Source: Candidatus Merdivicinus faecavium (lineage in GTDB: Bacteria > Bacillota > Clostridia > Oscillospirales > Ruminococcaceae). From it: a stretch of DNA of 41,999 nt. The notes under the pieces were generated by a model, which ran no database searches, was not told where the DNA came from, and worked only from the letters and a program-made list of their open reading frames with translations. Positions 1,381-32,379 of this stretch are shown one piece after another; the first letter of the stretch is position 1, and the number at the start of each line of letters is the position of its first letter. The stretch lies in the NCBI GenBank assembly GCA_018716285.1, contig DVKD01000025.1, forward strand, positions 1-41,999, in the 5' to 3' direction. Made by a program: the position numbers and the translations under genes.

Positions 1381-3252
1381 ATGCGGAGCTTTTTCCGGGA
1401 AAATTTCAATATGCTGAAAAACGGGAGGGGATTTTTCCGGTTTGAGCTTCTCTATAAACTGGCGGGGATTGCCGTAATGGCCCCCACTTTGCTGGTGCTG
1501 CTTAACGGTTCCCTGCGTTTATCGGGCCTTGCTTACCTGACAAACGACAACATTTTCCGGTATCTGCGCCACCCGGCGGGGATCCTGTTTGTTTTGTGCG
1601 CTGTGGCGGCGGTTTCTTTCAACCTGCTGGTGGAACTGTCCGCCCTGGCGTTTTATTTTTATGCCAAGCAGCAGGGGCGGCTGCTGACGGCCCGGCAGAT
1701 ATTTGTCGCCGGGATGAAGGTTTCCATGGGGCTTTTCCACCCGAAAAATATGCCCATGGCTTTCTTTTTGGTGCTGGTTGTCCCTTTAACCAGCCTGCCT
1801 TTGTTTTTGATGTATCTGTTTACCATCCGGGTTCCGGAATTTATTACCAGGTATATCCGGGGAAACACGCCGCTGATGGCGGCGGCGGTTGCTCTGCTGG
1901 CAATTCTGCTGGTCCTGTCTTTATGGCTTTTATTCTGTGTCCAGTACTTTACCCTGGAAGGGAAGAGCTTTGGGGAGGCCTGCCGGGCCAGTATCTGGCT
2001 GAACCGGGGGCGGGCTATGCGGACGGCCGTGTGGCTCTTTTGCTGGCAGGCTATGGTTTTGGGGGGCCTGCTCCTTGCATACCTGCTGTTTTTAGGGGCG
2101 GCCCTTTTGATTTCCAAGATTTTTATTCCCGGCACCGGGGCTATGGAAGTATTTTTATCGGTTTTTCAGTGGCTCAATCTGCTGGCGCTGCTGGTTGGGT
2201 TCTGCGTGGGGGTGCCGGCTGTGGCTACTGCCGCCGGCGGCCTCTATTTCCAGCTGAAAAAGGAGAAAAAAGAAAAGCTGGCGCCTTTAAAGAAGCTGGA
2301 CCTTCCCCGAGGCAGGGCTATGGACGCCAGGCTCAAATGGGGGACCATGTCGGTTTTAGCCGCTTTGGCGGTGATGAACGCCGGATATATCTGGCCGTCC
2401 ATGGACCGGGGGACCTTGGGGGTCATTGAGGGGATGCAGAAGCCCCTGATTACGGCCCATCGGGGGAATTCGGAAGACGCGCCGGAAAATACCATGGCCG
2501 CATTTCAGTCCGCTTTGGACGCCGGGGCGGATATGGTGGAGCTGGACGTCCAGCAGCTGGGGGACGGCTCCTTAATCATTATGCACGACAGTAATTTTCA
2601 GCGCACCACCGGCATAGACTTAAACGTGTGGGAGGCGGATGCCGGCATGGCGGCGGAAATGGACGCAGGCAGCTGGTTTTCCGAGGAATTTGCCGGGGAG
2701 CCGGTTCCGACCTTGGAAGAAGCCATTGTGTTCGCCAAAAGAAACGGACTGCGGCTGAACATTGAGTTAAAATCCAGCGGCCATGAAAGCTCTTTGGCGG
2801 AATCGGTGGTGAATATGATTGAGAAGTACCGCTTTGAGGACCAGTGTGTTCTGACCTCCCTGCAATACAGCCTGCTGGAACAGGTGAAGGAGCTGAATCC
2901 GGATCTCATGACCGGATATATCCTTTCTGTGGCTTACGGCCCCTTTTACAGTATGGAGGCGGCGGATATGTTCAGCATCCGTTCCGATTTTGTCACGCCC
3001 TCCATGGTGCGGGCCATCCACGACAACGGCAAAAGGATTATGGTCTGGACCGTCAACGACGAGGACCGGATGGAACAGATGCGGGAATGGCGGGTGGATA
3101 ATATTATTACCAACAATACCCTCCTGGCCCGTTCCATTGTGGATGAACCCAATACCAACTCCGCTTTGCTGCTGGCTTTTGAGGAATTTTTCACCGGGGA
3201 CAGCTTTTCCACCAGCGCCAAGCGGTTCTGGAAGGCCGCCTTCCGGCCGTGA
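1381..3252 (+). CDS. Glycerophosphodiester phosphodiesterase with N-terminal membrane domain
   Basis: Hydrolyses glycerophosphodiesters to glycerol 3-phosphate and an alcohol, probably from lipids or teichoic-acid-type polymers at the membrane. The first ~330 residues are hydrophobic with about six to eight membrane segments (a GPDPase_memb-like region). The C-terminal ~260 residues are a GDPD TIM barrel: ITAHRGNSEDAPENTM with the catalytic His, then MVELDVQ and IIMHDS, then NIELKSS as metal-binding acidic positions. The last ~25 residues follow the barrel without a recognisable domain. ATGs at 1360, 1372 and 1381 are in frame. AAAGGG at 1365-1370 sits 10 bases before 1381, so that start is chosen. 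It lies about 60 bases after folC and may be cotranscribed with it. Confidence 0.9.
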   Translation: MRSFFRENFNMLKNGRGFFRFELLYKLAGIAVMAPTLLVLLNGSLRLSGLAYLTNDNIFRYLRHPAGILFVLCAVAAVSFNLLVELSALAFYFYAKQQGRLLTARQIFVAGMKVSMGLFHPKNMPMAFFLVLVVPLTSLPLFLMYLFTIRVPEFITRYIRGNTPLMAAAVALLAILLVLSLWLLFCVQYFTLEGKSFGEACRASIWLNRGRAMRTAVWLFCWQAMVLGGLLLAYLLFLGAALLISKIFIPGTGAMEVFLSVFQWLNLLALLVGFCVGVPAVATAAGGLYFQLKKEKKEKLAPLKKLDLPRGRAMDARLKWGTMSVLAALAVMNAGYIWPSMDRGTLGVIEGMQKPLITAHRGNSEDAPENTMAAFQSALDAGADMVELDVQQLGDGSLIIMHDSNFQRTTGIDLNVWEADAGMAAEMDAGSWFSEEFAGEPVPTLEEAIVFAKRNGLRLNIELKSSGHESSLAESVVNMIEKYRFEDQCVLTSLQYSLLEQVKELNPDLMTGYILSVAYGPFYSMEAADMFSIRSDFVTPSMVRAIHDNGKRIMVWTVNDEDRMEQMREWRVDNIITNNTLLARSIVDEPNTNSALLLAFEEFFTGDSFSTSAKRFWKAAFRP

Positions 3253-3408
3253 CCCGGCGGGGAGGCCCCGCGGCCAGTGGGGTAACCCCGCTGTTAATTC
3301 GACGCGGCCGTACAGCCCCACACCGACCGCTGGAACGGCGAAATAAATTCGCCGATCTGATGGGATTCCATTCCTATCGTTTTTGTAAAACGGAACAGAA
3401 AACGCATT

Positions 3409-3438
3409 TGTAGGGGACGATGCCCACATCGTCCTGCA
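3409..3438. repeat. Dispersed palindrome, variant 1
   Basis: Arms GGACGATG and CATCGTCC flank CCCA, preceded by TGTAGGG and followed by TGCA. It has the same design as the palindromes at 3467, 4486 and 4636, with a different arm sequence. This is a REP-like dispersed element of the type common in Clostridia. Confidence 0.7.
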
Positions 3439-3466
3439 AATCCCCAAAATGTTTGCACAGAATCAT

Positions 3467-3493
3467 GGGCGGATGTAGGCATCCGCCCCTACA
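3467..3493. repeat. Dispersed palindrome, variant 2
   Basis: Arms GGGCGGATG and CATCCGCCC flank TAGG, and the element ends in CCTACA. The following ACCGGCG and GC-rich tail recur after the copy at 4486, so the shared unit is longer than the palindrome itself. Confidence 0.75.
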
Positions 3494-3631
3494 ACCGGCG
3501 AGCTGCCAGCGGCGGTTCCCCGCCCCGGGCTATGCACCTTTTGGCCATTTCCTCATATAATGCAATACGGACACTCTGCGGAGGCCCGCCCTCTTCAGAG
3601 ACCCGCCAATACTTAGTATAGGAGGATGGTT

Positions 3632-4453
3632 ATGGCAGAATCCAACGCTTCAAACAACAGCGCCGCCGTAGGCGCTAACTGCTTTAAGGAAGCGGTCTGC
3701 GTCAGCGCCGGCCGTATTTATGATTCCTGCTCGTCAAAAGACTGCCTGGAGGATTTGCGGGTATTCTTCACCGATACTGCCCAGGCTGCCGTGGACGCCG
3801 CCCAGAGTATTAAATGCCGGAAGGCGGAGGTCCTCAATGTGTTCATGGACGTGGAAAGCGTGCCCTTTAACAAAGGGTTCTATTCTGTGGATATGACCTA
3901 CTACTTTATGATTACCCTGGACGTTTACGCAGCTACTATGGCCCCGCCGGTGACGATTCAGGGCGTGGCAGTGTTCAGCAAAAAGGTGATCCTGTACGGC
4001 TCGGAAGGCAGCGTCAAGAGCTTTTCTTCCGCCATGCAGGCAGACCCCATGTCCGACGACTGCACCCTGACCTCCGACTGCCCCAACGCCAAGGTGCAGG
4101 TAGTGGATCCCATTATCCTGTCCTGCCGGGTTACCGATTCCGCCCTTTGCGGCGACTGCACCATCACCATCCCGCCCTGCATTGCAAGCCGGTTCAACGG
4201 AACCTTCCTCACTGGGGCGGTACAGCGGTATGTGTATGTAAGCATCGGTATTTTCTCCATTGTCCAGCTGGAACGGGATGTCCAGATGATGATCCCCGTT
4301 TACGATTTCTGCCTGCCGGATAAGGAATGCGCAAACGGCGGCGGCACCGCCACGGATGATCCCTGTGAACTGTTCCGCCGGATTAAATTCCCTGTCAACG
4401 AGTTCTTCCCGCCCAGGCTGGCGGAGCTGGACTGCGAAGACACCATCAGCTGA
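3632..4453 (+). CDS. Cysteine-rich conserved protein of unknown function
   Basis: 273 aa with no signal peptide and no membrane segment. It is rich in Cys, Val and beta-prone stretches. The clearest motif is GRIYDSCSSKDCLEDL near residue 30. Pairs such as DDCTLTSDC and CGDCTITIPPC follow. I believe this motif recurs in uncharacterised clostridial proteins, but I cannot name a characterised family. A structural role, for example in a spore or surface layer, is only a guess from the cysteine and beta content. AGGAGG at 3620-3625 overlaps an upstream ATG (3626), so the ATG at 3632, six bases after it, is taken as the start. It stands alone, with palindromes on both sides and a terminator at 4572. 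Confidence 0.75.
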   Translation: MAESNASNNSAAVGANCFKEAVCVSAGRIYDSCSSKDCLEDLRVFFTDTAQAAVDAAQSIKCRKAEVLNVFMDVESVPFNKGFYSVDMTYYFMITLDVYAATMAPPVTIQGVAVFSKKVILYGSEGSVKSFSSAMQADPMSDDCTLTSDCPNAKVQVVDPIILSCRVTDSALCGDCTITIPPCIASRFNGTFLTGAVQRYVYVSIGIFSIVQLERDVQMMIPVYDFCLPDKECANGGGTATDDPCELFRRIKFPVNEFFPPRLAELDCEDTIS

Positions 4454-4485
4454 TTTTTCCGAGACTCAACAAAAAGCGGTATACC

Positions 4486-4514
4486 GGGGGCGGATGCAAA
4501 CATCCGCCCCTGCA
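4486..4514. repeat. Dispersed palindrome, variant 2 second copy
   Basis: GGGGCGGATG and CATCCGCCCC flank CAAA, followed by TGCAACCGGCG. It matches the copy at 3467 in arms and in flank. Confidence 0.75.
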
Positions 4515-4571
4515 ACCGGCGCGCCGCCGGCGGCAATCCGCCGCGGCCGTTGTGCCTCGCGTCAGATTTAT

Positions 4572-4597
4572 AAACGGCGGGATGAACCGCCGTTTTC
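4572..4597 (+). terminator. Rho-independent terminator
   Basis: Stem AAACGGCGG / CCGCCGTTT with a 6-base loop, running into TTTTC. It ends the transcript of the cysteine-rich gene. Confidence 0.8.
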
Positions 4598-4635
4598 TGT
4601 ACAAATTTCCCGAAATAATGTCTGAGAATATCCGT

Positions 4636-4665
4636 TGTGTGGCGTCGGGAACGCCGCCCCCTACA
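4636..4665. repeat. Dispersed palindrome, variant 3
   Basis: GGCGT(C)/(A)CGCC core with the shared CCCCCTACA end. It has the same outer ends as the copies at 3409 and 3467 but another core. Confidence 0.6.
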
Positions 4666-4687
4666 AACGGCCCGGTCTCCGGGTTGG

Positions 4688-5065
4688 TGTAGGTTTGTCA
4701 AAGATTTGGACAATGAACTCAAGAGGAGAAAGCCAGTTGAGAGCCTCATGGGGAAGCTGTTGGAATGGCGGTTATGGACAGCGAGCTGGTTTGCGAAATC
4801 GTCCAGAGAGAAGAATGTGGGAACAAGCCCTTTTTCCGCATAACCCGAAAAAGGCTTTCGGGCCGTTGAGTATAACCTCTTTGGCGGAGCCGGCGCCAAA
4901 GTTCCACTAGGCCATGTCTTGTGTTATACTGGTACTCATGAAGGATAGGCCTCCTTTTCCGGTAAGTTTTGTGTGGTAACTTAACTATACCCTATGAAGA
5001 CCCTATCCTTCTACTCTTTTTTCCTTTTTCTTCTCCTCCTGTCCAATATCTATTGTACTCCTACA
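4688..5065 (-). mobile_element. Decayed insertion sequence with internal deletion
   Basis: The two ends are imperfect inverted repeats. Both begin TGTAGG, and both contain GAT(A)TTGGACA about 16-20 bases inside (left end read on plus, right end read on minus). Between them, on the minus strand, are the first codons and the last ~50 codons of an integrase-core transposase, with the middle missing. At 378 bases it is far shorter than an active element. The right-hand 79 bases recur at 14537-14615. Confidence 0.7.
4693..4939 (-). pseudogene. Transposase remnant (integrase-core type)
   Basis: The minus strand starts at 4939 with MSTSITQDMA and then a stop. It resumes with FFSLDDFANQLAVHNRHSN and FPMR, then after a frameshift LNWLSPLEFIVQIFDKPT. 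This head and tail are what I recall of a DDE integrase-core transposase common in Ruminococcaceae and Lachnospiraceae. The catalytic core between them is deleted, so it is inactive. Confidence 0.7.
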
Positions 5066-5094
5066 TTTCGTTCAGGTGTGATGACGGCATATTG

Positions 5095-5123
5095 TTGACA
5101 AAGCAACGTATTTATGATATAAT
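5095..5123 (+). promoter_or_regulatory. Sigma-A promoter of tetR-1
   Basis: TTGACA at 5095-5100, a 17-base spacer, TATAAT at 5118-5123: full consensus. The predicted +1 (about 5130) lies only about 8 bases before the ATG at 5138. The gene may therefore start at GTG 5153 instead. Confidence 0.9.
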
Positions 5124-5152
5124 CAAAAATCAAAAACATGGTGGTGAGCTTT

Positions 5153-5701
5153 GTGCCGGTGGATATGAAGGCTGTCATTTCCAGTGCGTTTGTGAATATG
5201 GTAAAGCAGAAGGGAATCGATAAAGTTACCGTAAAAGCATTGATCGACGCCTGCCACATCTCCCGTCAGACCTTTTATTACCACTTTCAGGACCTCATGG
5301 AGGTCATCGAATGGTCGCTGGAACGGGCGGCCAAGCAGAAGCTTGCCCAAAGCCTGGAGGCGGACACGCCCGAAGAAGCGCTGGCCGCCCTTTTTTCCTC
5401 AGCGTTTGAAAACCGCACCCTGATCCTCAGACTTTTGGATTCTCAAAGGCGGGAACAGATCGAAAAGCTGTTTGTCCAGGCGGCCCGGACTTATCTGCGG
5501 GAGCTTGTCCGCAATCGGCACTGCGGCTTGCCGCTCGACTGCGCCGGCGCTGAGGTGGCGCTGGATTTCTGCGCGTTCGGGATGGTCGGGCTGCTGTTTC
5601 AGTACTGTGCGCAGGGGCGGACCGACGCGGCGAATCTGGCGGCTCAGATCTGCCGCCTTCTTCCGAAAAGGGCTGAACCGGAAAAAAATGACGCGCTGTA
5701 G
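5153..5701 (+). CDS. TetR/AcrR-family transcriptional regulator (1)
   Basis: 182 aa. The N-terminal helix-turn-helix reads IDKVTVKALIDACHISRQTFYYHF, shown here only as the family's TVKALIDAC and SRQTFYYHF halves. The rest is an all-helical ligand domain with no recognisable ligand motif. Start: the ATG at 5138 is almost leaderless, while GTG 5153 has GGTGGTGAG upstream at good spacing. The first conserved residues (MKAVISSAF) begin even later, at 5165. It lies directly upstream of a coiled-coil protein and an ABC exporter on the same strand, with an operator-like palindrome in the gap (5779). It is therefore probably the local repressor of that transporter, induced by an exported compound. 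Confidence 0.85.
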   Translation: MPVDMKAVISSAFVNMVKQKGIDKVTVKALIDACHISRQTFYYHFQDLMEVIEWSLERAAKQKLAQSLEADTPEEALAALFSSAFENRTLILRLLDSQRREQIEKLFVQAARTYLRELVRNRHCGLPLDCAGAEVALDFCAFGMVGLLFQYCAQGRTDAANLAAQICRLLPKRAEPEKNDAL

Positions 5702-5721
5702 CCCAAGGCGCGTTATTTTTT
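5691..5721 (+). terminator. Probable terminator after tetR-1
   Basis: ACGCGC / GCGCGT stem (5691-5696, 5708-5713) followed by TATTTTTT. It begins in the last codons of the gene. The stem is short, so strength is uncertain. Confidence 0.55.
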
Positions 5722-5778
5722 GCGGTTTTGCCCCTTTTTATTTTTCGTCCTGACAAGGGGGCCGAAATGTCAGCTTTT

Positions 5779-5800
5779 TGACACTTTGCCGGAAGTGTCC
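5779..5800. promoter_or_regulatory. Operator-like palindrome upstream of the ABC operon
   Basis: TGACA-N12-TGTCC. The inner part is a perfect inverted repeat GACACTT-tgccgg-AAGTGTC. TTGACA (5778-5783) could be a -35, but no good -10 follows at 17 bases. A second TGTCA lies at 5768-5772. The layout matches the elements at 12609 and 14451. Confidence 0.65.
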
Positions 5801-5892
5801 ATACACATGGGGGAAATTGTCAGTGGCGTTTTGAGGCATTCTCTGGTATAACGGAAGGTGGGAAAGACCTATGCGGGAAGGGAGTTGTAAAG

Positions 5893-6363
5893 ATGAAGGT
5901 CAACGAAGGGATGTTTGCCGTCAAGCTGCAGGAACTGGAGCAGCAGTACGGGCGGATGCGCAGCCGCCTTCGTCTCCTCCAGCGGGAGGACCATTCCAAA
6001 ATCCGCAAAGAGCTTCAGATGGCGGCGGATGAATGCCGGCAAAACGAGCTTTTGCTCCAAAAAAACGTCGAGGGCAGCCGTTCCCCCGCGGTCTCCGCGC
6101 TGGCGGGCGCCCAGCTGGCTTACTGCCGCAGGGTGGGGAAGCTTCTCAAACGCAAGCTCCCTCGCTGCCTGAGCTGCGAGGGCAGCACCCCGCATGAGGA
6201 TGAAGCGGAAGCCGCCTCCCTCTACGCGGAGTACGCCATCGACTTTGCCGTCCAGTCCGCGCGGTACGCGCTGCTTGCCGCACTGCGGGCCATCGACCTG
6301 CAGATGGACGCGGAAGAGCAGAAGGGGGAAGCCTGCGGCGGCCTCAGTCCGAAGTCCCGCTGA
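5893..6363 (+). CDS. Coiled-coil protein of unknown function, ABC operon
   Basis: 156 aa. The first ~60 residues are charged and heptad-like (KLQELEQQYGRMRSRLRLLQ), the middle is basic (KLLKRKLPRC), and the C-terminal half is alanine-rich and helical. There is no signal peptide or membrane segment, and I do not recognise a named family. It sits between the operator at 5779 and the ABC exporter, 41 bases before it, so it is probably cotranscribed. It may be an accessory or partner of the exporter. GGAAGGGAG upstream supports the ATG at 5893. Confidence 0.7.
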   Translation: MKVNEGMFAVKLQELEQQYGRMRSRLRLLQREDHSKIRKELQMAADECRQNELLLQKNVEGSRSPAVSALAGAQLAYCRRVGKLLKRKLPRCLSCEGSTPHEDEAEAASLYAEYAIDFAVQSARYALLAALRAIDLQMDAEEQKGEACGGLSPKSR

Positions 6364-6404
6364 CCGGGGCTTTCCGCTTTTTATCGGTTAGAAAGGAAGA
6401 AACT

Positions 6405-9400
6405 ATGCTCGAACTCAAAAACATCAAAAAAGATTACCCCACCGGCGGAGAAACGGTGGAAGCCCTCAAGGGGATCGACCTGCAATTCCGGAAAAGCGAG
6501 TTTGTCTCCATCCTGGGGCCGTCCGGCTGCGGGAAGACGACGCTTTTAAACATCATCGGGGGCTTGGACCAATATACCTCGGGGGATCTTGTCATCAACG
6601 GGAAATCGACAAAGGATTTTAAGGACCGGGATTGGGACGCCTACCGCAACCATTCGGTGGGATTTGTCTTCCAGAGCTACAACCTCATCCCGCACCAGAC
6701 CGTTTTGCAGAATGTGGAATTGGCGCTGACTTTGTCCGGCGTCTCCAAAGCGGAGCGCCGCCGCCGGGCGAAGGAAGCGCTCGAGCAGGTGGGGCTTGGA
6801 AATCAGCTCAAAAAGCGGCCGAGCGAGATGTCCGGCGGGCAGATGCAGCGGGTCGCCATCGCCCGGGCGATTGTCAATAACCCCGACATCATCCTTGCGG
6901 ATGAGCCGACCGGCGCGCTGGACACCGAAACCAGCCTCCAGGTCATGGAGATCCTCAAGGAGATCTCCAAAGACCGGTTGATCATCATGGTGACCCACAA
7001 CCCCGATCTGGCCGAAAAATATTCCACCCGCATCGTCCGGATCCTGGACGGCAGACTGACCGATGATTCCGCTCCGCTGGATGAGGAAGAGGTCAAGCGG
7101 GAACGGGAGGCCGGAATGAAAAAGGCGGAGAGCGAAAGGGCGGTCAAAAAGCCTTCGATGTCCCTCGGCACCTCCTTCGGGCTGTCTTTAAAAAACCTGT
7201 TTACCAAAAAGGGGCGCACCGCTCTGACCTCCTTTGCCGGCAGCATCGGCATCATCGGGATCGCCCTGATTTACGCCGTATCCCAGGGAACCACCGCCTA
7301 TATCGACGCCCTGCAGGAGGATACCCTCTCTTCCTACCCCCTCACGCTGCAGGCCCAGAGCATGGATTTGGGGGCGCTGATGCAGGAATTCATCGGCGCG
7401 GCGCAGTCGCAGGACGCGCACGAGAACGACGCCGTCTACCAGAAGCCGATGGTCTACGACCTGGTAAACGCCCTCAATTCGACCGACAGCATCCAAAACG
7501 ACCTGCGTTCCTTTAAAAACTATCTGGAGGAGCGCCGGGCAGACACCGGAAGTGAAAGCAGCCTGCACGACGCTGTCAGCGGCGTGCAGTACACCTATGA
7601 CACCGACCTTCTGGTGTACACGGAGAATGTGGACGGCGCCATCCTGCGCTCGGATTCCCGGGAACTGATGCAGGATCTGCTGCTCGAATATTTTGGCCTC
7701 GATATGTCGTCCATGCTGGGGCTCAGCGAGGAATACGGCATGGCGGACAGCATGAGCGCCCTCTCCTCCCTGTCGCCGGCCGGAAGTTCCATGATTTTGT
7801 GGCAGGAGATGCTGCCGGGCGACAACGGGAAGCTTGTAAATCCGCTGCTCGAGAGCCAGTACGACGTGGTGTACGGTTCCTGGCCCACCGAGTATGACGA
7901 AATTGTGCTGGTGCTGGATGAGAACAACGAGCTGGACGATATGGCGCTGTACGCTTTAGGACTAAAGTCCGAGGAAGAGATCGGCGCGATTATGGAGGCC
8001 GCTATCAACCAGACTCAGCTGGATGTGGAGACGCAGAAGTGGTCCTATGAGGACATTTGCAATATGGAGTTCAGGGTCATTCTGAATTCCGACTGCTATG
8101 CTCTGGACGAAGCAACGGGCCTGTATGTGGACCTGCGGGAAACCGAGGCCGGGTTAAAATATCTTTACGACAATGGCGTCAGCCTGAAGGTTTCCGGCAT
8201 CATCCGTCCCAACGAGGACGCCGCTTCCACCATGCTGAACGGTTCGATTGGCTATACCAGCGCGCTCACCGAGTATGTGATCGAGCAGTCCAAAAATTCC
8301 GCCGCTGTGGAGGCGCAGCTGGATAACCCGTCCACCGACATTTTTACGGGGCTGCCCTTCCAGGAGAGCACGGCGGACCTCACGGACGCGCAGAAGGAAG
8401 CGGACTTCCGGGAATACATTTCCGGCCTGGATGAAAACGGAAAGGCAGAGGCTTATGTGCAGATTATGAGCCTGCCTACCGAAGAGCAGGTGGATACGGC
8501 GGTTTCCCAGACAGTGAGGGCTATGACCCGGTCGGATATGGAGGAGACCCTCAAGCAGGGACTCAGCCAGCAGGCGGGTTTGAGCGAGGCGGAAATCGAG
8601 GATTATATTTCCGCTATGAGCGACAGCGACTTGTCCGAGCTGTTTGCACAGGTGGCAGAGGAACAGTTCCGCGCCCAGTATGCGGCGCAGGTGCAGGCCC
8701 AGATGGGCTCTATGAGTGTCCAACAGCTGGCAGCCGCTCTGGATCTGGCAATGGAAAGCTACACAACTGCACAGTGCGCCTCCTATTACGATGATGTCCT
8801 CGTTTTTTCCGAAAGCAGCTATGAGGAGAACCTGCAGGAGCTGGGGTATGTGGACTTAGACGATCCGGCGTCCATCAACATCTACGCCTCATCCTTTGAA
8901 AACAAGGACGCCATTGAGCAGGCCATTTCGGATTACAACGAGGGAAAGGACGATCTGGAGCAGATCCAGTACACCGATTATGTGGGGCTGATGATGTCGT
9001 CCGTGACCTCGATCATCAACGCCATCACCTATGTGCTGATTGCCTTTGTCGCAGTGTCCCTGATCGTTTCCTCCATTATGATCGGCGTTATCACCCTGAT
9101 TTCGGTTCAGGAGCGGACGAAGGAGATCGGGATCCTGCGGGCCATCGGCGCTTCCAAGCGGAATGTCTCCTCCATGTTCAATGCGGAGACGCTGATCATC
9201 GGGTTCACTTCCGGCGCGCTCGGGGTCCTGATCACCTATCTGCTGTGCATCCCCATTAATATGGTCCTGCATCATTTTACCGGCATCACCGCGCTCAACG
9301 CCTATCTCCCGCCGTTAGCGGCCCTGGTGCTGGTTCTCATCAGCATGGCCCTGACCCTGTTCTCCGGGATCATCCCCTCCAGAAGCGCGGCGAAAAAGGA

Positions 9401-24291: not shown

Positions 24292-25500
24292 ATGATTGAA
24301 ATCAAAGGCAAATATAGCGAAGCCAAAATCTTTACCGATATAGTGGACAGCGCCTCCGTCGCGCAGGTGCAGGAGCTCTGCAACCAGGAATTCGCGGCAG
24401 GCAGCCGCATCCGCCTGATGCCCGACATCCACGCCGGCAAAGGCTGCACCATCGGGACCACCATGACCATCACCGATAAGGTGGCGCCCAACCTGGTCGG
24501 GGTGGACATCGGATGCGGCATGGAGACCATCCGCGTCCGGGAATCCCGCATCGAGCTGCAAAAGCTGGACAAGCTGATCTACGAGAGGATCCCCTCCGGC
24601 TTCTCCATCCGGGAGAAGGCCCACCGGTACCTGGGCCAAATCGACCTGTCGCAGCTGTGCTGCGCCCGCCATGTGGACCTCATCCGGGCGGAGAAGAGCA
24701 TCGGGACCTTAGGGGGCGGCAATCACTTCATCGAGGTGGATCGGGACGACGAGGGGAACCTCTATATCGTCGTTCACTCCGGCAGCCGTCATCTGGGGGT
24801 CGAGGTGGCCGGCTACTACCAGGAAGCGGGCTATAAGGTCCTCAACCGCACCGACGACGCCTCTGTCGAGGCGCTGATCGCCCAGCTCAAGGCAGAGGGC
24901 CGGGAGAGGGAGATTCAGAAGGAACTCAAAAAGCTCAAAAATATCAAACAGACCAGTATCCCGCGGGAGCTTGCCTATGTGTCCGGGGAATTGTTCGAGC
25001 AGTATCTTCACGACATGAAGATCGTCCAGCAGTTCGCGGCCCTCAACCGCCAGGCCATGATGGACGAGATCGTCAAGGGGATGAAGCTGCATGTGGAGGA
25101 GCAGTTTACCACCATCCACAACTATATCGACACCGAGCAGATGATCCTGCGGAAGGGCGCCGTGTCCGCCCGGGCGGGCGAGCAGCTGCTGATCCCCATC
25201 AATATGCGGGACGGGAGCCTGATCTGTGTGGGCAAGGGCAGCGAGGACTGGAACTATTCCGCCCCGCACGGCGCCGGCCGCCTGATGAGCCGGGCGGAGG
25301 CCAAACAGTCCTTCACTGTCTCCGAATTCAAAAAGCAGATGGCGAATGTCTACACCACCTCGGTGAACCGGTCCACCCTCGACGAGTGCCCGATGGCCTA
25401 TAAGGGGATGCAGGATATTCTGGACAACATCGGCCCTACGGCGGAGGTGGTCAAAATCATCCGGCCGATCTACAATTTCAAAGCCGGGGACGAGGACTGA
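24292..25500 (+). CDS. rtcB: RtcB-family RNA ligase
   Basis: 402 aa. Joins 2',3'-cyclic phosphate or 3'-phosphate RNA ends to 5'-OH ends using GTP and Mn2+, in RNA repair. The metal-binding Cys is in VGVDIGCGMETI. His ligands lie in GGGNHFIEV and VVHSGSRHLG. The guanylylated His is in SAPHGAGRLMSR. The C-terminal catalytic block is present (TLDECPMAYKG). Length is normal for bacterial RtcB. GAGGAAG precedes the ATG. It stands alone between terminators, with no rtcA or archease gene nearby. Confidence 0.95.
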   Translation: MIEIKGKYSEAKIFTDIVDSASVAQVQELCNQEFAAGSRIRLMPDIHAGKGCTIGTTMTITDKVAPNLVGVDIGCGMETIRVRESRIELQKLDKLIYERIPSGFSIREKAHRYLGQIDLSQLCCARHVDLIRAEKSIGTLGGGNHFIEVDRDDEGNLYIVVHSGSRHLGVEVAGYYQEAGYKVLNRTDDASVEALIAQLKAEGREREIQKELKKLKNIKQTSIPRELAYVSGELFEQYLHDMKIVQQFAALNRQAMMDEIVKGMKLHVEEQFTTIHNYIDTEQMILRKGAVSARAGEQLLIPINMRDGSLICVGKGSEDWNYSAPHGAGRLMSRAEAKQSFTVSEFKKQMANVYTTSVNRSTLDECPMAYKGMQDILDNIGPTAEVVKIIRPIYNFKAGDED

Positions 25501-25558: not shown

Positions 25559-26659
25559 CTACTGCACCAGATACTGCCGGATGTCTGCCGTTTCGAGGGC
25601 GGCAAGCTGGCTCTCGCCAACCACCGGGATGAGGGCCTCCGTATCGGGAATGGCGGCGAGTACCGCGCTTTCCCGGCCTTCCGGGAGGATGACAGAGACC
25701 TTTTCCGCGGTGATGGCGGCGGGGGAGCCGCCGTAAAGGTCGTCTGCTTCGCCGAGATACCCCTCGCCGGCATAAACGGGGATAACCTCCGCGTCATAAC
25801 GGGCTGCCGCGCTCACCATCTCGTCCAAGGCGGCCTGAAGGGCCTCGGTGAGGGTCATGGTGTCCTGATAGGGGCCGTAGCCCATCTGCTGCGGGTAGCG
25901 GGTGTCGGGGTACTGGAGACCGGCCGCGAAGATCTGGGCGAAGCCGGCTTCAGCGACCTCTCCTGCGATGGCGCTCAGGTATTCCCGGGCAGCTGGCATG
26001 TAGGGGTTGAGCCAGGAGCGTCCGCCCTGGTCCGCGGCCTGATCGAGCCAGGTAACGCCGGTCTGGTTTTCATAGAGATAGGAGGTTTCATAGGTCGCGT
26101 GGGATGCTACGTCGTCCTCGAGGGTGTAAAGCCAGGCGGCCGGGGTAAAGCCCGCCTCCTCAATGGCGGCCGCAAGCGATTCCAGCTCGTCCATCGTCAT
26201 GGCGGAGGAGGAGATCGCGCCGCAGGTCGCCGCCAGCGGCACCGCGGACTGATAGGCGAGGACGCCGTCGGAGGACTTCAGCTCGACCACAACGGTATTG
26301 TAAAGCGTTTCATCCAGGGAGGCGAGGAAGGTAGCGGCCCGTGCGGGGTCTGCGGCGTCGGCCGCAGGCATCACGGCGGCGCGGATCTCCTCCTCCTCGG
26401 CGGCAGGAGCGGAGGACTCCGGCGCGGAAGAAGGATCATCCGGCGGGACAATCTCGGAAACCAGGCTGCTTTCCGGCAGGGAGGATTCCGGCTCCGGGCG
26501 GTTTTGCAGGTCGCCCAGGGATTTGGCCACACAGTACCCCAGAAAGGTCAGCCCTCCCAGCAGCAGGATGAACAGCAAAACCTTCAGCCACCTCCCGCGG
26601 CGGCGCCGCATGCTGAGGGAGCCGTAATTGTAGCGTTTGATTTTACGTTGTCTTGCCAT
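25559..26659 (-). CDS. Membrane-anchored GHL13/DUF4015-like protein
   Basis: 366 aa. A basic cytoplasmic start, one membrane helix (about 25-45), a Ser/Pro/Glu-rich linker, then a TIM-barrel-like domain. VVVELKSSDGVLAYQSAVP and GRSWLNPYMPAAREYLSAIA resemble DUF4015 putative glycoside hydrolases. Where that family has an acidic residue in an FDYVRFP-type strand, this protein reads IFAAGLQYP, so catalysis is doubtful. GGAGG precedes the ATG. It is the last gene of the operon, 22 bases after the rnfA-like gene, so an extracytoplasmic role linked to that membrane module is possible. Confidence 0.65.
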   Translation of the reverse strand: MARQRKIKRYNYGSLSMRRRRGRWLKVLLFILLLGGLTFLGYCVAKSLGDLQNRPEPESSLPESSLVSEIVPPDDPSSAPESSAPAAEEEEIRAAVMPAADAADPARAATFLASLDETLYNTVVVELKSSDGVLAYQSAVPLAATCGAISSSAMTMDELESLAAAIEEAGFTPAAWLYTLEDDVASHATYETSYLYENQTGVTWLDQAADQGGRSWLNPYMPAAREYLSAIAGEVAEAGFAQIFAAGLQYPDTRYPQQMGYGPYQDTMTLTEALQAALDEMVSAAARYDAEVIPVYAGEGYLGEADDLYGGSPAAITAEKVSVILPEGRESAVLAAIPDTEALIPVVGESQLAALETADIRQYLVQ

Positions 26660-26681: not shown

Positions 26682-27296
26682 TCAAATGGACAGCTCGTGG
26701 CCGATGAGGCCGTAAAAGGCGAGGGAGAGGATTCCGATATAGATCAGGGTGACGGGGAAGCCGCGGAAGGCGGGCGGGATTCTGTCGCTGCTCAAGCGCT
26801 CATAGCCGAGCGCGATGAGGTAGGAGGCGAGCAGGAAGCCGAGCCCTGTCCCCAGGCCGTATGCGATGTGGCCCCAGAGATCGTAGCTGTGGCTGAGCAG
26901 CAGCGCCCCGAAAACCGCGCCGTTGAAGGCGGACAGGTGAATCATCGGGATGATCTGCATCCGCAGATGGATGGGGAGAAGCCCGCAGCCGAAGAGGAAA
27001 AGAATATACACAATCCCGACCATAAAGACATAGACGAGCGGCCGCCAGCTGTAGGCGTCTGCGCCCGTACCCGCCAGCCAGCCGTCCGCAAAATAGACGA
27101 GAATCGACGAAAGGGTGGTAATGCCGGTCAGGATCAGGCCGAAAAGCAGGCGGTTATAGCGCTTGCGGGTGATGAAGAGCACAGCGCTTGTCCCCATCGC
27201 GCGGGTAAACAGAATGTTCTGCACAAAGATAGCGACGACCGCGATGGAGGCCATTTCCGAGGTTGTCGCGCGCAGGACCTCAAAAAAATCACGCAT
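26682..27296 (-). CDS. RnfA-like membrane subunit without iron-sulfur cysteines
   Basis: 204 aa, six membrane helices. It aligns well with RnfA/RsxA. FVQNILFTRAMGTSAV matches the LVNNFVL-FLGLCPF region, IPPAFRGFPVTLIYIGIL matches VPAPFRGNAIALITAGLM, and SLAFYGLIG matches the end. The two cysteines that in RnfA/NqrE-type subunits ligate the intramembrane [2Fe-2S] are replaced: Ser37 (in GTSA) and Gly126 (in FNGAVFG, canonical TNCAVLG). Canonical RnfA passes electrons across the membrane together with RnfE. This one cannot form that cluster as known. It overlaps the rnfE-like gene by 8 bases. Confidence 0.8.
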   Translation of the reverse strand: MRDFFEVLRATTSEMASIAVVAIFVQNILFTRAMGTSAVLFITRKRYNRLLFGLILTGITTLSSILVYFADGWLAGTGADAYSWRPLVYVFMVGIVYILFLFGCGLLPIHLRMQIIPMIHLSAFNGAVFGALLLSHSYDLWGHIAYGLGTGLGFLLASYLIALGYERLSSDRIPPAFRGFPVTLIYIGILSLAFYGLIGHELSI

Positions 27297-27945
27297 GACG
27301 GTCCTCCTTCCGGCCTTTTTTGCGGGGCTGTTTTTCCAGATAAAGGCGGAACTTCTGCAGCAGCGCCGCGAAAAATCCGAGCAGGATGAAGCCGCCGAAC
27401 GGCATCAGCAGCGCAGGCGCCGTCCTGGTTACCCACTCGACCGGCTGGCCGAAGAGGGTTCCCTTTCCGAACAGCTCTCGGACAAAAGCGGTTGCAAGAG
27501 CTGTCGCGGCAAAGCCGAGCGACGCGGTGAAGAGCTGCGCCGCCATGACCGGCAGCCGCTCATGGTGGTAGCGGGATTCGCTTTTCTGGACAACAAGGGA
27601 ATTGGTGGCCAGCAGCGGCAGGTAGACGCCGAGGCTGAAGACGGCCTCCGGCATCCTTTCCCGCAGCCAGAAGGAAAGCGGGACAAATATGCAGGCCGCG
27701 ACGGCGGCGCTCAGGATGACGCGGATGGTGTATGGGAGCTTTTTGGGGATGAAGTAGGTGATGAGGATGGTCAGGATGGTGATGATCGCAAAAGCGCCGG
27801 ACAGCACCAGCGCATTGGAAATCGAGGTGCAGGTCACGACAATGGGGGCCAGGACCAGCCCGCGCTCCAAAATGGGGTTGCCGAGCAGGAACTGGTCGAC
27901 CCGGTCGATCTTCCTGCGGTGTTTCTGGTAAAAACTCCGAAGCAT
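27289..27945 (-). CDS. RnfE-like membrane subunit without iron-sulfur cysteines
   Basis: 218 aa, six membrane helices. It aligns with RnfE/RsxE: NPILERGLVLAPIVVT with the LLGLCPLLAVT region, GVYLPLLATNSLVVQKSE with GIFIPLIVTNCIVVGRAE, FVRELFGKGTLF with SLREIIGNGTLF, and MPFGGFILLG near the end. Both cluster cysteines are replaced (Ala33 and Ser116). A cysteine at 39 is shifted by six residues. GGGAGG lies seven bases before ATG 27945. The gene is two bases after rnfD and overlaps rnfA. Confidence 0.8.
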   Translation of the reverse strand: MLRSFYQKHRRKIDRVDQFLLGNPILERGLVLAPIVVTCTSISNALVLSGAFAIITILTILITYFIPKKLPYTIRVILSAAVAACIFVPLSFWLRERMPEAVFSLGVYLPLLATNSLVVQKSESRYHHERLPVMAAQLFTASLGFAATALATAFVRELFGKGTLFGQPVEWVTRTAPALLMPFGGFILLGFFAALLQKFRLYLEKQPRKKGRKEDRHA

Positions 27946-27947
27946 CG

Positions 27948-28958
27948 TCAGACCTCCCTTTTGCGGCCGGCGGCGTGCCAGACGGCCAGGACGCCCTGCG
28001 CGCATTTGCGGGGCAGGACCTTGAGCCCGTGCAGAATCCGGGAGGCGTAGGCGTCGCAGCGGTGGTCGACAGCGCTCAGGATGATGATGGCAAAGGGGGA
28101 GACCAGCTCGAGGTAGCTCAGCTGATTGAAGAGGACGATGGCGCCGCCCAGGATGAGGCCGTACATCCACTTGCCGGCGGATGTCTCGATCTCCCCGTTG
28201 TCCATCGCCGCCACAAAGAAGATGGAGAAGAGGGTGACGCCCGAGGTCAGCTCCATCAGGACCGAGACGGTGCGGCTGCCGTTGATGCGGGGGAAAAACC
28301 AGGCCGCCAGCGCGATAATCGCGAGGGAAGCCACAGGAATCTGCCAGAGGATGGTCCGGCGGACCGCAAGATACAGCCCGCAGCAGAGCAGCACGGCGAC
28401 GCAGGTCGTCCCCATCGGGCCGATAAAGTTGCCGAGCAGGGCGTCCAGCAGGCCGAGGTTGGTGCTGCCGCCCAGCATCAGCATCCGGGCGGGGGAGTCG
28501 GAAAGGGAGACGTCGGCCGTCGGGGTCAGCGGAAGTTTCTGAAACATCTGGGGATAGCGGGTCGTCAGGTCGTTCCAGCAGAGGACGACAAAGGCGAAGG
28601 CGGTCAGGCCGGGGTGGAACAGGGTGTGATAGTGCCCGCCGAAGGGATGGCGGACCACCACGACGGCAAAAAGCGCCCCAAAGACGACCAGCCAGTAGGG
28701 AGCGGAAGCCGGGAGCATCAGCACGTAGGTCAGGCCGATGATGAGCGGCGCAAAGTCATACCGGCTCCACCAGCGCTTTCCCTGGAACAGGAGACAGAGG
28801 TAGTCCGCCGCCGCGGAGGTCACCACCGCAATGCAGGCCATCACCAGCACGCGGGGGCCGTAATAGTACCAGGCCATCAGCAGAAGGGGAAGCAGGGTGA
28901 TGGTGGTGTCGATCATCTGACGGCGGTATTTTTCGTAGGGGAGCACTGGGTTCCACAT
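27948..28958 (-). CDS. RnfD-like membrane subunit without the flavinylation motif
   Basis: 336 aa, about nine to ten membrane helices. RnfD/NqrB-family features include the N-terminal PVLPYEKYRRQMIDT, YDFAPLIIGL and HPFGGHYHTLFHPG. The block LLDALLGNFIGPMGTT matches RnfD's LDLFLGNIGGSIGET. Just before it, canonical RnfD carries SGAT, whose Thr bears covalent FMN. This protein reads MLGGSTNLG instead. The ATG is preceded by AAAGG with almost no spacing, so initiation may be weak or the start lies elsewhere. It begins the rnfD-E-A group, 48 bases after rpe. Confidence 0.78.
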   Translation of the reverse strand: MWNPVLPYEKYRRQMIDTTITLLPLLLMAWYYYGPRVLVMACIAVVTSAAADYLCLLFQGKRWWSRYDFAPLIIGLTYVLMLPASAPYWLVVFGALFAVVVVRHPFGGHYHTLFHPGLTAFAFVVLCWNDLTTRYPQMFQKLPLTPTADVSLSDSPARMLMLGGSTNLGLLDALLGNFIGPMGTTCVAVLLCCGLYLAVRRTILWQIPVASLAIIALAAWFFPRINGSRTVSVLMELTSGVTLFSIFFVAAMDNGEIETSAGKWMYGLILGGAIVLFNQLSYLELVSPFAIIILSAVDHRCDAYASRILHGLKVLPRKCAQGVLAVWHAAGRKREV

Positions 28959-29006: not shown

Positions 29007-29642
29007 TCAGCGGAGGGAGTCGATGGCCGCGGCAGCGTCCTTTGCGCCGAAGAGGTAATTGCCTGAAACGAGGATATCCGCCCCCGCTTCGCGGCAGAGG
29101 GCCGCGGTTTCCCGGTTGATGCCGCCGTCGACGTTGATGGGGAGATCCGGGGACATGCTGCGCAGGGCGCGGATCCGATCCGGGGCATCGGCCAGAAAAG
29201 ACTGTCCGCCGAAGCCCGGTTCGACGCTCATGATGAGGGCAAAATCGAGTTCCGGGAGGAAGGGGAAAAGCGCCTCGACCGGGGTGGACGGGCGGATGGT
29301 AAGCCCCGCTTTGCTGCCGGCCGCATGGATGGCGCGGATGGTTTCACGGGGGTCGGAATCGCTTTCCAGGTGGAAGGTGATCATGTCGGCGCCGGCCTTT
29401 GCAAATGCGTCCGCATACCGGAGCGGGTCGGCGATCATCAGGTGGATGTCGAATGGGAGGGAGGTCGCCTTTCGGATGGAGGCCAGGACCGGGATGCCGA
29501 AGGAGATGTTGGGGACAAAGACCCCGTCCATTACGTCAAAGTGGATCATGTCGGCGCCGGCGTGCTCCATGCGCGCCAGCTCGCGGCCCAGGCAGGAAAA
29601 ATCTGCCGCCAGGATCGAGGGGGAAATACGGGTTTTACTCAA
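29007..29642 (-). CDS. rpe: Ribulose-phosphate 3-epimerase
   Basis: 211 aa TIM barrel that interconverts ribulose 5-phosphate and xylulose 5-phosphate. Active-site blocks: ISPSILAADFSCLG, MIHFDVMDGVFVPNIS (metal His and Asp), FDIHLMI, VEPGFGGQSF, and INVDGGINRE. It begins with TTG (29642), eight bases after GGAGG. It is the first gene after the promoter at 29700 and appears to lead the rnf-like operon. In other bacteria rpe usually lies with rsgA or PASTA-kinase genes, so this neighbourhood is unusual. Confidence 0.95.
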   Translation of the reverse strand: MSKTRISPSILAADFSCLGRELARMEHAGADMIHFDVMDGVFVPNISFGIPVLASIRKATSLPFDIHLMIADPLRYADAFAKAGADMITFHLESDSDPRETIRAIHAAGSKAGLTIRPSTPVEALFPFLPELDFALIMSVEPGFGGQSFLADAPDRIRALRSMSPDLPINVDGGINRETAALCREAGADILVSGNYLFGAKDAAAAIDSLR

Positions 29643-29699: not shown

Positions 29700-29728
29700 A
29701 TTGTACTTGATTTTTCGACATCCGTCAA
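29700..29728 (-). promoter_or_regulatory. Promoter of rpe and the rnf-like operon
   Basis: Minus strand: TTGACG (29728-29723), a 17-base spacer, TACAAT (29705-29700). No other promoter is evident before the genes that follow. Confidence 0.8.
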
Positions 29729-31171: not shown

Positions 31172-31233
31172 TTGTGGTGAAGCTTATGGAAAAGGACAGA
31201 GATAGAAAAACGTTTCATCAAAGGAGAGTCAGC

Positions 31234-32379
31234 ATGGAAAAGAGAATGTACAAAGACACCGGCGTGCAGGTTTCCCTTCTCGGCATGGGCTGTATGCGCC
31301 TGCCGCGGATCGACCCGGACAAGAACGACATCGACTATGAAAAGGCGCAGGAGCTCATCGACTACGCCTACTCCCACGGCGTCAACTACTTCGACACCGC
31401 CTACGGCTACCACGGCGGCGAGTCGGAGATCTTTGTCGGCCATGCGCTCAAGAAATACCCCCGCGACAGCTTCTTCCTCGCTTCCAAGATGCCCATCTGG
31501 TGCTGCGAGAAGCCCGAGGACGTCGAAAAAATCTTCAACGAACAGCTGAAGAAGTGTCAGACTGAGTATTTCGACTTCTACCTGCTCCATTCCCAGAGCG
31601 ACGCGAACTTTAAAAAGTGTCAGGAATTCGGCGTCTACGAATTCCTCTCCAAAATGAAGGCGGAGGGCAAGATCCGCCGGCTCGGCTTCTCCTTCCACGA
31701 CAAGCCCGAGGTGCTGCGCCATATCTGCGAGACCTATCCCTGGGATTTTGCCCAGATCCAGCTCAACTACCTCGACTGGGAGATGCAGGACGCGAAGCAG
31801 CAGTACGAGATCCTCACCGAGTTCGGCATCCCCGTCGTGATCATGGAGCCGGTCCGCGGCGGCGCGCTGGCCCACCTCTGCGACGAATCGGACGCCCTCT
31901 TCAAGGCCGCCCGCCCGGACAAGAGCGTCGCCTCCTGGGCGATCCGCTACGCGGCGAGCCTGCCGAACGTCCTCACCGTCTTAAGCGGCATGTCCACCCC
32001 CGAGCAGGTCGCCGACAACGTCGCGACCATGACCGGCTTCGAGCCGCTGACCGACGCCGACCGCGCCGTCATCGAGCAGGCGGTCGCCGTCTTCCGCGAG
32101 AAGAAGACCATCCCCTGTACCGCCTGCCGCTACTGCATGGACTGCCCCTTCGGCGTCGAGATCCCCAAGATGTTCAGGCTCTACAACGATTACGCCCTCC
32201 ACAAGGACGAGCGCCGCTACTGGAAAGCCTACCACGACCAGCCCGAATCTGAGTGGGCCGACAAGTGTAAAGCCTGCGGCGCCTGCATGGAGCAGTGCCC
32301 CCAGCACATCCGCATCCCCGACCGGATGGCCGAAATCAAAGAGCTGATGAACGGCTTTGACCAGAAATTTTCCAAGTAA
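31234..32379 (+). CDS. Aldo/keto reductase with C-terminal 4Fe-4S domain
   Basis: 381 aa. AKR barrel with the catalytic residues visible: Asp and Tyr in YFDTAYGYHGG, Lys in LASKMP, and His in FYLLHSQS. The C-terminal ~80 residues hold two cysteine motifs, CTACRYCMDCP (C-x2-C-x2-C-x2-CP) and CKACGACMEQCP (C-x2-C-x2-C-x3-CP). This clostridial class probably takes electrons from ferredoxin or NAD(P)H to reduce a carbonyl. The substrate is unknown. AAAGGAG precedes ATG 31234. The promoter and SD exclude the upstream in-frame ATG. It is followed 13 bases later by an aminotransferase. Confidence 0.92.
   Translation: MEKRMYKDTGVQVSLLGMGCMRLPRIDPDKNDIDYEKAQELIDYAYSHGVNYFDTAYGYHGGESEIFVGHALKKYPRDSFFLASKMPIWCCEKPEDVEKIFNEQLKKCQTEYFDFYLLHSQSDANFKKCQEFGVYEFLSKMKAEGKIRRLGFSFHDKPEVLRHICETYPWDFAQIQLNYLDWEMQDAKQQYEILTEFGIPVVIMEPVRGGALAHLCDESDALFKAARPDKSVASWAIRYAASLPNVLTVLSGMSTPEQVADNVATMTGFEPLTDADRAVIEQAVAVFREKKTIPCTACRYCMDCPFGVEIPKMFRLYNDYALHKDERRYWKAYHDQPESEWADKCKACGACMEQCPQHIRIPDRMAEIKELMNGFDQKFSK

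Follow-up and report, generated by a model that had tools for sequence, protein, structure and literature searches.

The window analysed here, the first 41,999 nucleotides of contig DVKD01000025.1 of Candidatus Merdivicinus faecavium (Oscillospirales, Ruminococcaceae), holds on its minus strand a tight run of five genes in the order rpe-D-E-A-DUF4015-like, in which three membrane proteins homologous to the RnfD, RnfE and RnfA subunits of the Rnf complex stand between a ribulose-phosphate 3-epimerase gene and a gene for a DUF4015-like protein (Table 1). The D and E genes are 2 bases apart, the E and A genes overlap by 8 and a gap of 22 separates A from the DUF4015-like gene; an rnfC-like gene is absent from the operon. 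The original prediction, made from the letters of the DNA, had singled out the RnfA-like/RnfE-like pair, the reading frames and coordinates of which were reproduced, and the RnfD-like and DUF4015-like proteins can now be added to the same gene unit.

Table 1. Features of the operon in the window, in the direction of transcription; positions count from the first letter of the window.
Feature	Coordinates	Strand	Evidence
sigma-70-like promoter candidate 5' of rpe, 10/12 matches	29700..29728	-	consensus match alone; weak
rpe, ribulose-phosphate 3-epimerase	29007..29642	-	first gene of the run; exceeds the cut-offs of Pfam PF00834 and NCBIfam TIGR01163
RnfD-like membrane protein	27948..28958	-	Pfam PF03116, E 6.1e-50; alignment to 9eri_D
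RnfE-like membrane protein, 218 amino acids, ATG at 27945	27289..27945	-	PF02508, E 5.8e-26 (scanned on 27289-27951)
codon of RnfE-like Ala33, former cluster ligand	27847..27849	-	PDB-chain alignment
codon of RnfE-like Ser116, former cluster ligand	27598..27600	-	PDB-chain alignment
RnfA-like membrane protein, 204 amino acids	26682..27296	-	Pfam PF02508, E 3.3e-20; PDB alignments; model
codon of RnfA-like Ser37, former cluster ligand	27186..27188	-	PDB-chain alignment
codon of RnfA-like Gly126, former cluster ligand	26919..26921	-	PDB-chain alignment
DUF4015-like protein	25559..26659	-	Pfam PF13200, E 7.8e-18, 65.1 bits (cut-off 27)

The RnfA-like and RnfE-like proteins (PF02508) and the RnfD-like protein (PF03116) pass the Pfam cut-offs for their families and stay below the narrower NCBIfam ones, with 52 bits against 229 for rnfA and 62 bits against 213 for rnfE, the RnfD-like protein likewise falling short of the rnfD cut-off. 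The window proteins are also below the listed NCBIfam cut-offs for the Nqr equivalogs, and no NqrC- or NqrF-type gene lies between the members of the operon, a statement that covers the operon and not the genome, throughout which NqrF and NqrC were not searched for.

Loss of the cluster ligands

In Acetobacterium woodii (A. woodii) the [2Fe-2S] centre in the membrane is held by RnfA C25 and C113 and RnfE C25 and C108, and autotrophic growth is lost when the cluster cysteines are mutated (PMC11889175, in the parts consulted). The corresponding motifs of the solved chains, LGICPF and TTNCAVLG on the RnfA side and LGMCPT and VVNCIILG on the RnfE side, align in the window with MGTSAV (Ser37) and FNGAVFG (Gly126) in the RnfA-like protein and with LVLAP (Ala33) and TNSLVV (Ser116) in the RnfE-like protein. 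HMMER alignments set Ser37 and Gly126 opposite the cluster cysteines of 9eri_A and 7zc6_A, and Ala33 and Ser116 opposite those of 7zc6_E, 7xk3_D, 9eri_E and 8ahx_E, so that the replacement of all four cysteines by these residues, as originally proposed, stands with the recomputed numbering. Two other cysteines, Cys39 of the RnfE-like and Cys104 of the RnfA-like protein, had been considered as substitute ligands and are rejected, as neither aligns to a ligand column and the positions hold Cys in just 7/61 and 15/62 relatives, respectively.

The relatives come from a contig scan, which gave 11 loci from uncultured Clostridia, Oscillospiraceae or Candidatus Metaruminococcus, and from a search of the family with the window RnfA, which gave matches in 181 of 197 genomes, some of them canonical RnfA. 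Sixty loci with their flanks were taken across the score range of the latter; two (L106 and L107) serve as canonical references and the other 58 are of the derived form, some of them on the same contigs as scan loci. Identical sequences were merged before residues were counted, and counts are given per distinct sequence (RnfA-like n=62, RnfE-like n=61, RnfD-like n=61) in A. woodii numbering.

RnfA C25 is Cys in none of the 62 sequences (Ser in 47), RnfE C25 in none of 61 (Ala in 45) and RnfE C108 in none of 61 (Ser in 39, Pro in 14). The ligand losses are thus family-wide and not a peculiarity of one genome, which had been the other way in which the prediction might have failed. As RnfA C113 is kept in 36/62 relatives, the description 'all four gone' applies to the window genome, and the rule among the sequences read is that the other three cysteines are always lost and RnfA C113 is variable.

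Around the former ligands, the preservation of neighbouring motifs noticed in the window extends to the relatives. RnfA N112 is kept in 60/62 and the RnfA GxP motif in 62/62, the RnfE IRE motif in 61/61 and 60/61, RnfE R67 in 53/61 and E115 in 40/61; in the window, Arg75 and Glu123 of the RnfE-like protein occupy the positions of this R67-E115 gating pair. The derived group also has residues of its own, such as Phe at RnfA T111 (51/62) and Tyr in place of a canonical RnfA Val (81% of 75 rows). Gene order is equally constant: rpe lies 5' on the same strand in 58/58 derived loci and the DUF4015-like gene 3' of the RnfA-like gene, again on the same strand, in 53/58, with an RnfC-like gene adjoining D in 18/58. 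Where it could be computed, the ratio of non-synonymous to synonymous substitution rates (dN/dS) lay at 0.03-0.21 in A, 0.04-0.29 in E and 0.06-0.21 in D, close to the 0.06-0.21 of the adjoining rpe; these are rough values from 11 hand-picked pairs of relatives, with synonymous sites near saturation in many and several ratios uncomputable. The derived family is under constraint with its own residue signature, and the earlier view that selection rather than decay shaped the pair gains support from the family-wide conservation, the constant gene order and the dN/dS of 0.03-0.29.

Other subunits and cofactors

All 20 loci with an RnfC-like gene, one sequence having been fetched twice among them, encode eight cysteines in two CxxCxxCxxxCP (4Fe-4S) motifs, and in all 20 the GGAGFPT motif is lost and ERDG or similar found instead. 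The two RnfC-like proteins that were scanned both showed ferredoxin and SLBB domains; the flavin mononucleotide (FMN)-binding domain PF01512 reached 30.5 bits against a cut-off of 31.2 in one and was unreported in the second.

The position of the FMN-carrying Thr in the RnfD-like protein is Thr in 6/61. For riboflavin, N123 is Asn in 43/61 and D249 is Asp in 37/61 and Glu in 14, hence acidic in 51/61. Loci with an RnfC-like gene keep N123 in 19/19 and Asp or Glu at 249 in 19/19, and loci without one keep N123 in 24/42, counts that come from related sequences and not from independent samples. The window belongs to the latter group, and its RnfD-like protein has, by alignment-based mapping, His115 at the riboflavin Asn, Met252 at the riboflavin Asp and Ser155 at the FMN-Thr.

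RnfG and RnfB were sought with profiles built from five and eight seeds, of which three RnfG seeds were checked to carry PF04205 FMN_bind and two RnfB seeds ferredoxin domains. The RnfG profile matched canonical loci and gave no match in the window or in the other derived loci. No convincing RnfB was found either, the profile giving none in the window and at most 25.5 bits in 15 derived loci, as against 261-457 bits in canonical loci with a match; 13 of these weak matches are to the RnfC-like frame, and those of L061 and L104 are to frames on the plus strand, where the derived genes do not lie.

Distribution among genomes

The best match to the derived RnfA has E <=1e-15 in 143/197 family genomes. 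All 57 best-in-genome loci fetched in this range are derived, and a second-best one, L106, is canonical. A search of the order gave its top matches in the own family and in the genomes G200 and G218. The remaining 17 loci read from the order (L122-L138) proved to be canonical, RnfE being unreadable in L126. Outside the order, 27/27 loci read from the class search (L139-L165) keep all four cysteines, and 7 of the 21 phylum-search matches outside the own genome were read, six of them with all four cysteine motifs and the seventh, L211, with a second RnfE motif that the search pattern did not fit. The derived form was accordingly not found outside the order among the loci read, which exclude the weaker matches, and a very divergent derived copy may exist there.

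The window genome also holds a separate Rnf-Nqr pair with its cysteines kept, on contig C57, and canonical-type RnfC on contigs C57 and C54 (L005, L006). The C54 locus (L006, 644-1549) is a canonical-type rnfC-rnfD pair with a short RnfG match near the contig end, for which no RnfE/RnfA partner was found in the window genome.

Other genomes have the derived pair as the only one. PF02508 was counted in 17 family genomes chosen for having one match in the family RnfA search, so that the counts are no estimate of frequency: exactly two matches occurred in 13, four in three and one in one. In those 13 genomes RnfA C25 is non-Cys in 13/13, C113 is kept in 4/13 and both RnfE cysteines are lost in 13/13; the RnfA-like and RnfE-like genes of one of them, G102, lie on different contigs. 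Three of the 13 (G102, G177, G194) are 93-97% complete. The derived pair can be the sole PF02508 pair of a cell.

A role specific to sporulation was considered and rejected. SpoIVA (TIGR02836) was found in 168/197 family genomes, nine of the 29 negatives being deduced from gaps in the list, and the derived RnfA-like protein, here defined by the score cut of E <=1e-15 and not sequence by sequence, occurs in 18/29 SpoIVA-negative genomes and is missing from several SpoIVA-positive ones.

Probable origin in a reductive series

An order-wide search with a profile of the DUF4015-like protein matched 78/197 genomes, and 20 places were read. Several families of the order have canonical rnfCDGEAB operons in which rnfB is followed by a DUF4015-like gene: L203 has rpe-C-D-G-E-A-B-DUF4015 and L191-L195 and L198 have C-D-G-E-A-B-DUF4015, all with four cysteines. 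For two of the DUF4015-like genes in this position a check gave PF13200 matches of 99.6 and 131.3 bits, and in the series as a whole the identities of RnfG, RnfB and DUF4015 were verified on a few loci. No paper on canonical rnf together with a DUF4015-like gene was found in the open-licence PubMed Central (PMC) text searched. Since intact rnfCDGEAB operons already carry the gene behind them, it is probably an old neighbour of Rnf that adjoined it before the cluster was lost.

Between the two ends stand further forms. L204 (G285, 2871-9001) is a six-gene rnf operon with Thr at both RnfA ligand sites and Cys and Gly at those of RnfE, and with three of four cysteines replaced it is an apparent living intermediate. 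The order rpe-C-D-E-A-DUF4015 is found in L188 and L190, where the cluster ligands are lost except for the second RnfA Cys of L188; L202 has rpe-D-E-A-DUF4015; and in L186 and L189, from genomes without any PF02508 match, rpe and the DUF4015-like gene are left with no D-E-A. The remaining places are contig-end fragments (L187, L196, L199) or have the DUF4015-like gene in other surroundings (L197, L200, L201, L205). In the L202 locus (G218) the RnfE-like gene contains an in-frame TGA (~4581-4583, minus strand), for which sequencing error, decay or recoding may account.

In a tree of 120 concatenated A/E/D sets, 63 derived sequences form one group (0.988), from which L120, L190, L188 and then L204 step towards the canonical sequences, with canonical plus L204 separated from the rest at 1.0. 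The tree is rooted at its midpoint and has long branches, and the placement of L080 is unsupported. The forms themselves are observed in related families, and we infer from them a direction of stepwise loss.

Predicted structures and the DUF4015-like protein

The RnfA-like and DUF4015-like proteins were modelled as single chains from 12 sequences each. The RnfA-like model is of middling confidence (pLDDT, predicted local distance difference test, 70.7) and weakest at 1-3, at 28-36 beside the first former ligand and at 199-204. Its helices break at 35-37 and 124-125, which is at or beside both former ligand positions. In a fold search with it, ranks 1-17 are all A, D or E subunits of Rnf or Nqr, the best at E 0.0095.

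The DUF4015-like protein has a basic N-terminus, one long hydrophobic helix, a Ser-rich linker and a domain resembling a TIM (triosephosphate isomerase) barrel that is presumed to lie outside the membrane; its model (pLDDT 79) has the long N-terminal helix and the TIM-barrel-like domain. The family profile matches 4s1a (Cthe_0052) with E 4.9e-31, the window protein matches it by fold, and further fold matches of the window model are GH20 (glycoside hydrolase family 20) enzymes and the glycoside-hydrolase-like TIM barrels of Cwp19. The strand FDYIRFP of 4s1a corresponds to AAGLQYP in the window protein, which has lost the aligned Asp and Arg, and relatives vary at the Asp. If the FDYIRFP residues matter for catalysis, the window copy is probably inactive.

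A redox-inactive core as the favoured reading

That the pair would need a job other than electron transfer, as had been suggested from the cysteines with transport or a structural role named as candidates, is strengthened by the absence of RnfG beside it, the lack of a convincing RnfB, the degenerate or absent RnfC-like protein and the loss of the FMN-Thr in most RnfD-like sequences. With the buried centre, RnfG and RnfB gone, electrons have no visible route across the membrane, and the trio of the window is very probably redox-dead in this respect. With the fold and part of the gate kept, this favours D-E-A as a redox-inactive, Rnf-derived membrane core that would be retained as an ion-coupled complex, perhaps together with the envelope protein, a reading which, as deduced from sequences, has about an even chance of being right. 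It builds on observed losses, conservation, gene order and series of forms, and it supposes that the three proteins assemble, that they couple to ions and that the DUF4015-like protein is involved.

In Rnf, Na+ pumping has been described as alternating access of the A/E dimer that is triggered by reduction of the membrane centre (PMC11889175, in the parts consulted). The ancestor of the derived form would have been an rnfCDGEAB operon with the DUF4015-like gene already behind it, which would have lost rnfG, rnfB, the buried [2Fe-2S] centre and the glycine motif for FMN/NADH in RnfC and finally, as in the window, rnfC and the riboflavin residues of RnfD. The RnfA/RnfE dimer would probably still be an alternating-access, ion-coupled (Na+ or H+) module, because its helices are still broken and most members keep the Arg-Glu gating pair, and an ion gradient instead of electrons would drive solute transport or an action at the envelope, with the membrane-anchored TIM-barrel protein as a possible partner. 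Since the redox parts are gone and the membrane core is under selection, the old pump has probably been given a different job. Once redox death is granted, an ion-coupled transporter or motor can be wagered on as readily as against. The most detailed version, in which the RnfA-like and RnfE-like proteins would bind Na+ or H+ and let it through by alternating access, with the RnfD-like and TIM-barrel proteins using this to move a solute or glycan at the envelope, is tentative and rather unlikely to hold in all its parts.

Several observations weigh against the favoured reading. RnfE E115 is not conserved in 21/61 sequences, and RnfA E88, the third member of the ion network, which in A. woodii pairs with RnfE R67 and E115, is lost in 62/62; RnfA T110 is Thr in just 17/62, and in A. 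woodii T110 is needed, T110G giving no growth (both PMC11889175, in the parts consulted). The fold search with the RnfA-like model gave no match at E <=0.001. Any partnership of D-E-A with the DUF4015-like protein must be loose, because the gene was not found beside 5/58 derived loci and several genomes keep it without D-E-A. Finally, lineages with an RnfC-like protein keep 4Fe-4S motifs and riboflavin residues, so that some electron transfer may survive in them.

The last point leads to a shortened redox path, in which electrons from ferredoxin or another carrier would enter the 4Fe-4S clusters of the RnfC-like protein and pass to riboflavin in the RnfD-like protein, so that the membrane centre, RnfG and RnfB would be dispensable, genomes without an adjoining RnfC-like gene borrowing a canonical RnfC. 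The complete cysteine motifs in 20/20 RnfC-like loci and the riboflavin Asn and acidic D249 in all 19 distinct RnfD-like rows from RnfC-bearing loci agree with it, and the window genome has canonical-type RnfC (C57, C54) to lend. On the other hand, GGAGFPT is lost and PF01512 below cut-off or unreported (two scanned), the window RnfD-like protein carries His and Met in place of the riboflavin Asn and Asp, 42/61 distinct RnfD-like rows come from loci with no adjoining RnfC-like gene, no membrane-crossing route can be seen, and in 13 genomes the derived pair occurs without a canonical one, RnfC elsewhere in these genomes not having been searched for. As an account of the family it is improbable, at about one chance in five; in the RnfC-bearing lineages the residual electron route over RnfC-like protein and riboflavin is a serious rival.

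Of similarly low probability is a structural scaffold, a trio that would anchor or position the DUF4015-like envelope protein and move no ions. It would fit the DUF4015-like gene after the RnfA-like gene in 53/58 derived loci, the presence of this gene in some genomes without D-E-A and the partial loss of the ion network. Yet the conserved IRE, R67, N112 and GxP seem to go beyond the needs of a passive anchor, the DUF4015-like protein brings a long N-terminal helix of its own, and its gene is missing from five derived loci.

An accessory or regulatory partner of canonical Rnf, for instance with the dead pair standing in for RnfA/RnfE in a mixed complex, might be imagined where both pairs coexist, as in the window genome, and two matches were found in 10/13 other family genomes in the order search; as the derived pair is the sole pair in 13/17 chosen genomes, having exactly two PF02508 matches that are derived in all 13, it is not a mere accessory of canonical Rnf, and this explanation is weakened to the point of being very improbable. 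A decaying paralogue on its way to loss, which the loci that dropped D-E-A altogether and the in-frame TGA of L202 might suggest, is rejected as equally remote in view of the low, if rough, dN/dS, the rpe gene 5' of D in 58/58 fetched loci and residues conserved specifically in the derived form, such as the Phe at RnfA T111.

Relation to known systems

With Rnf of A. woodii (9eri), Clostridium tetanomorphum (7zc6) and Azotobacter vinelandii (8ahx) the derived form shares homologues of D, E and A in the common order D-E-A, the fold of the RnfA-like protein as found by the fold search, RnfE R67 and, less often, E115, and in some relatives an RnfC-like protein with two 4Fe-4S motifs. Unlike Rnf, it has an incomplete set of [2Fe-2S] ligands, no RnfG that could be found and no convincing RnfB, its RnfD has mostly lost the FMN-Thr, its RnfC-like protein is without GGAGFPT or absent, and it has rpe as a fixed neighbour and mostly also the DUF4015-like gene. 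Na+-NQR, the Na+-translocating NADH:quinone reductase (e.g. 7xk3), has NqrD/NqrE homologous to the RnfE-like/RnfA-like proteins and NqrB to the RnfD-like protein, and keeps the membrane [2Fe-2S] centre that the derived form is without; NqrA, a relative of RnfC, is described as having no redox cofactors (PMC12174285, in the parts consulted). Because most of the defining features tested fail, the derived D-E-A should not be named 'Rnf complex', its homology to Rnf notwithstanding, and the presence of RnfA, RnfD and RnfE genes alone is a poor warrant for calling 'Rnf' in such Clostridia.

The open-licence PMC text searched gave no description of an RnfA/RnfE without the cluster or of an Rnf-linked DUF4015-like gene, and in the literature searched none was found of an ion-motive module of the Rnf kind that is driven by a gradient and free of electrons. 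The site of ion movement in Rnf and Nqr, RnfA/RnfE or RnfD/NqrB, and its dependence on the membrane centre are treated differently in the parts of PMC11889175 and PMC12174285 consulted. A natural family that is without the centre and keeps the A/E and D subunits under selection is a direct way to test the behaviour of the protein core in the absence of electrons, and at least 13 genomes carry the derived pair with no canonical pair found. If the most detailed version of the favoured reading is true, a gradient-driven core would be an electron-driven pump that evolved to run without electrons. A bioenergetic complex has apparently been dismantled stepwise, with intermediates still extant.

Further features of the window

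The promoter candidate 5' of rpe comes from a consensus scan of 4.7 kb on both strands that gave 3 promoter-like sites against 0.8 expected. On the plus strand, the window encodes at 31174-32379 an aldo-keto-reductase-like protein that has a ferredoxin-type cysteine motif at its C-terminal end and that the rnfB model matched weakly, and at 24292-25500 an RtcB-type RNA ligase (Pfam PF01139).

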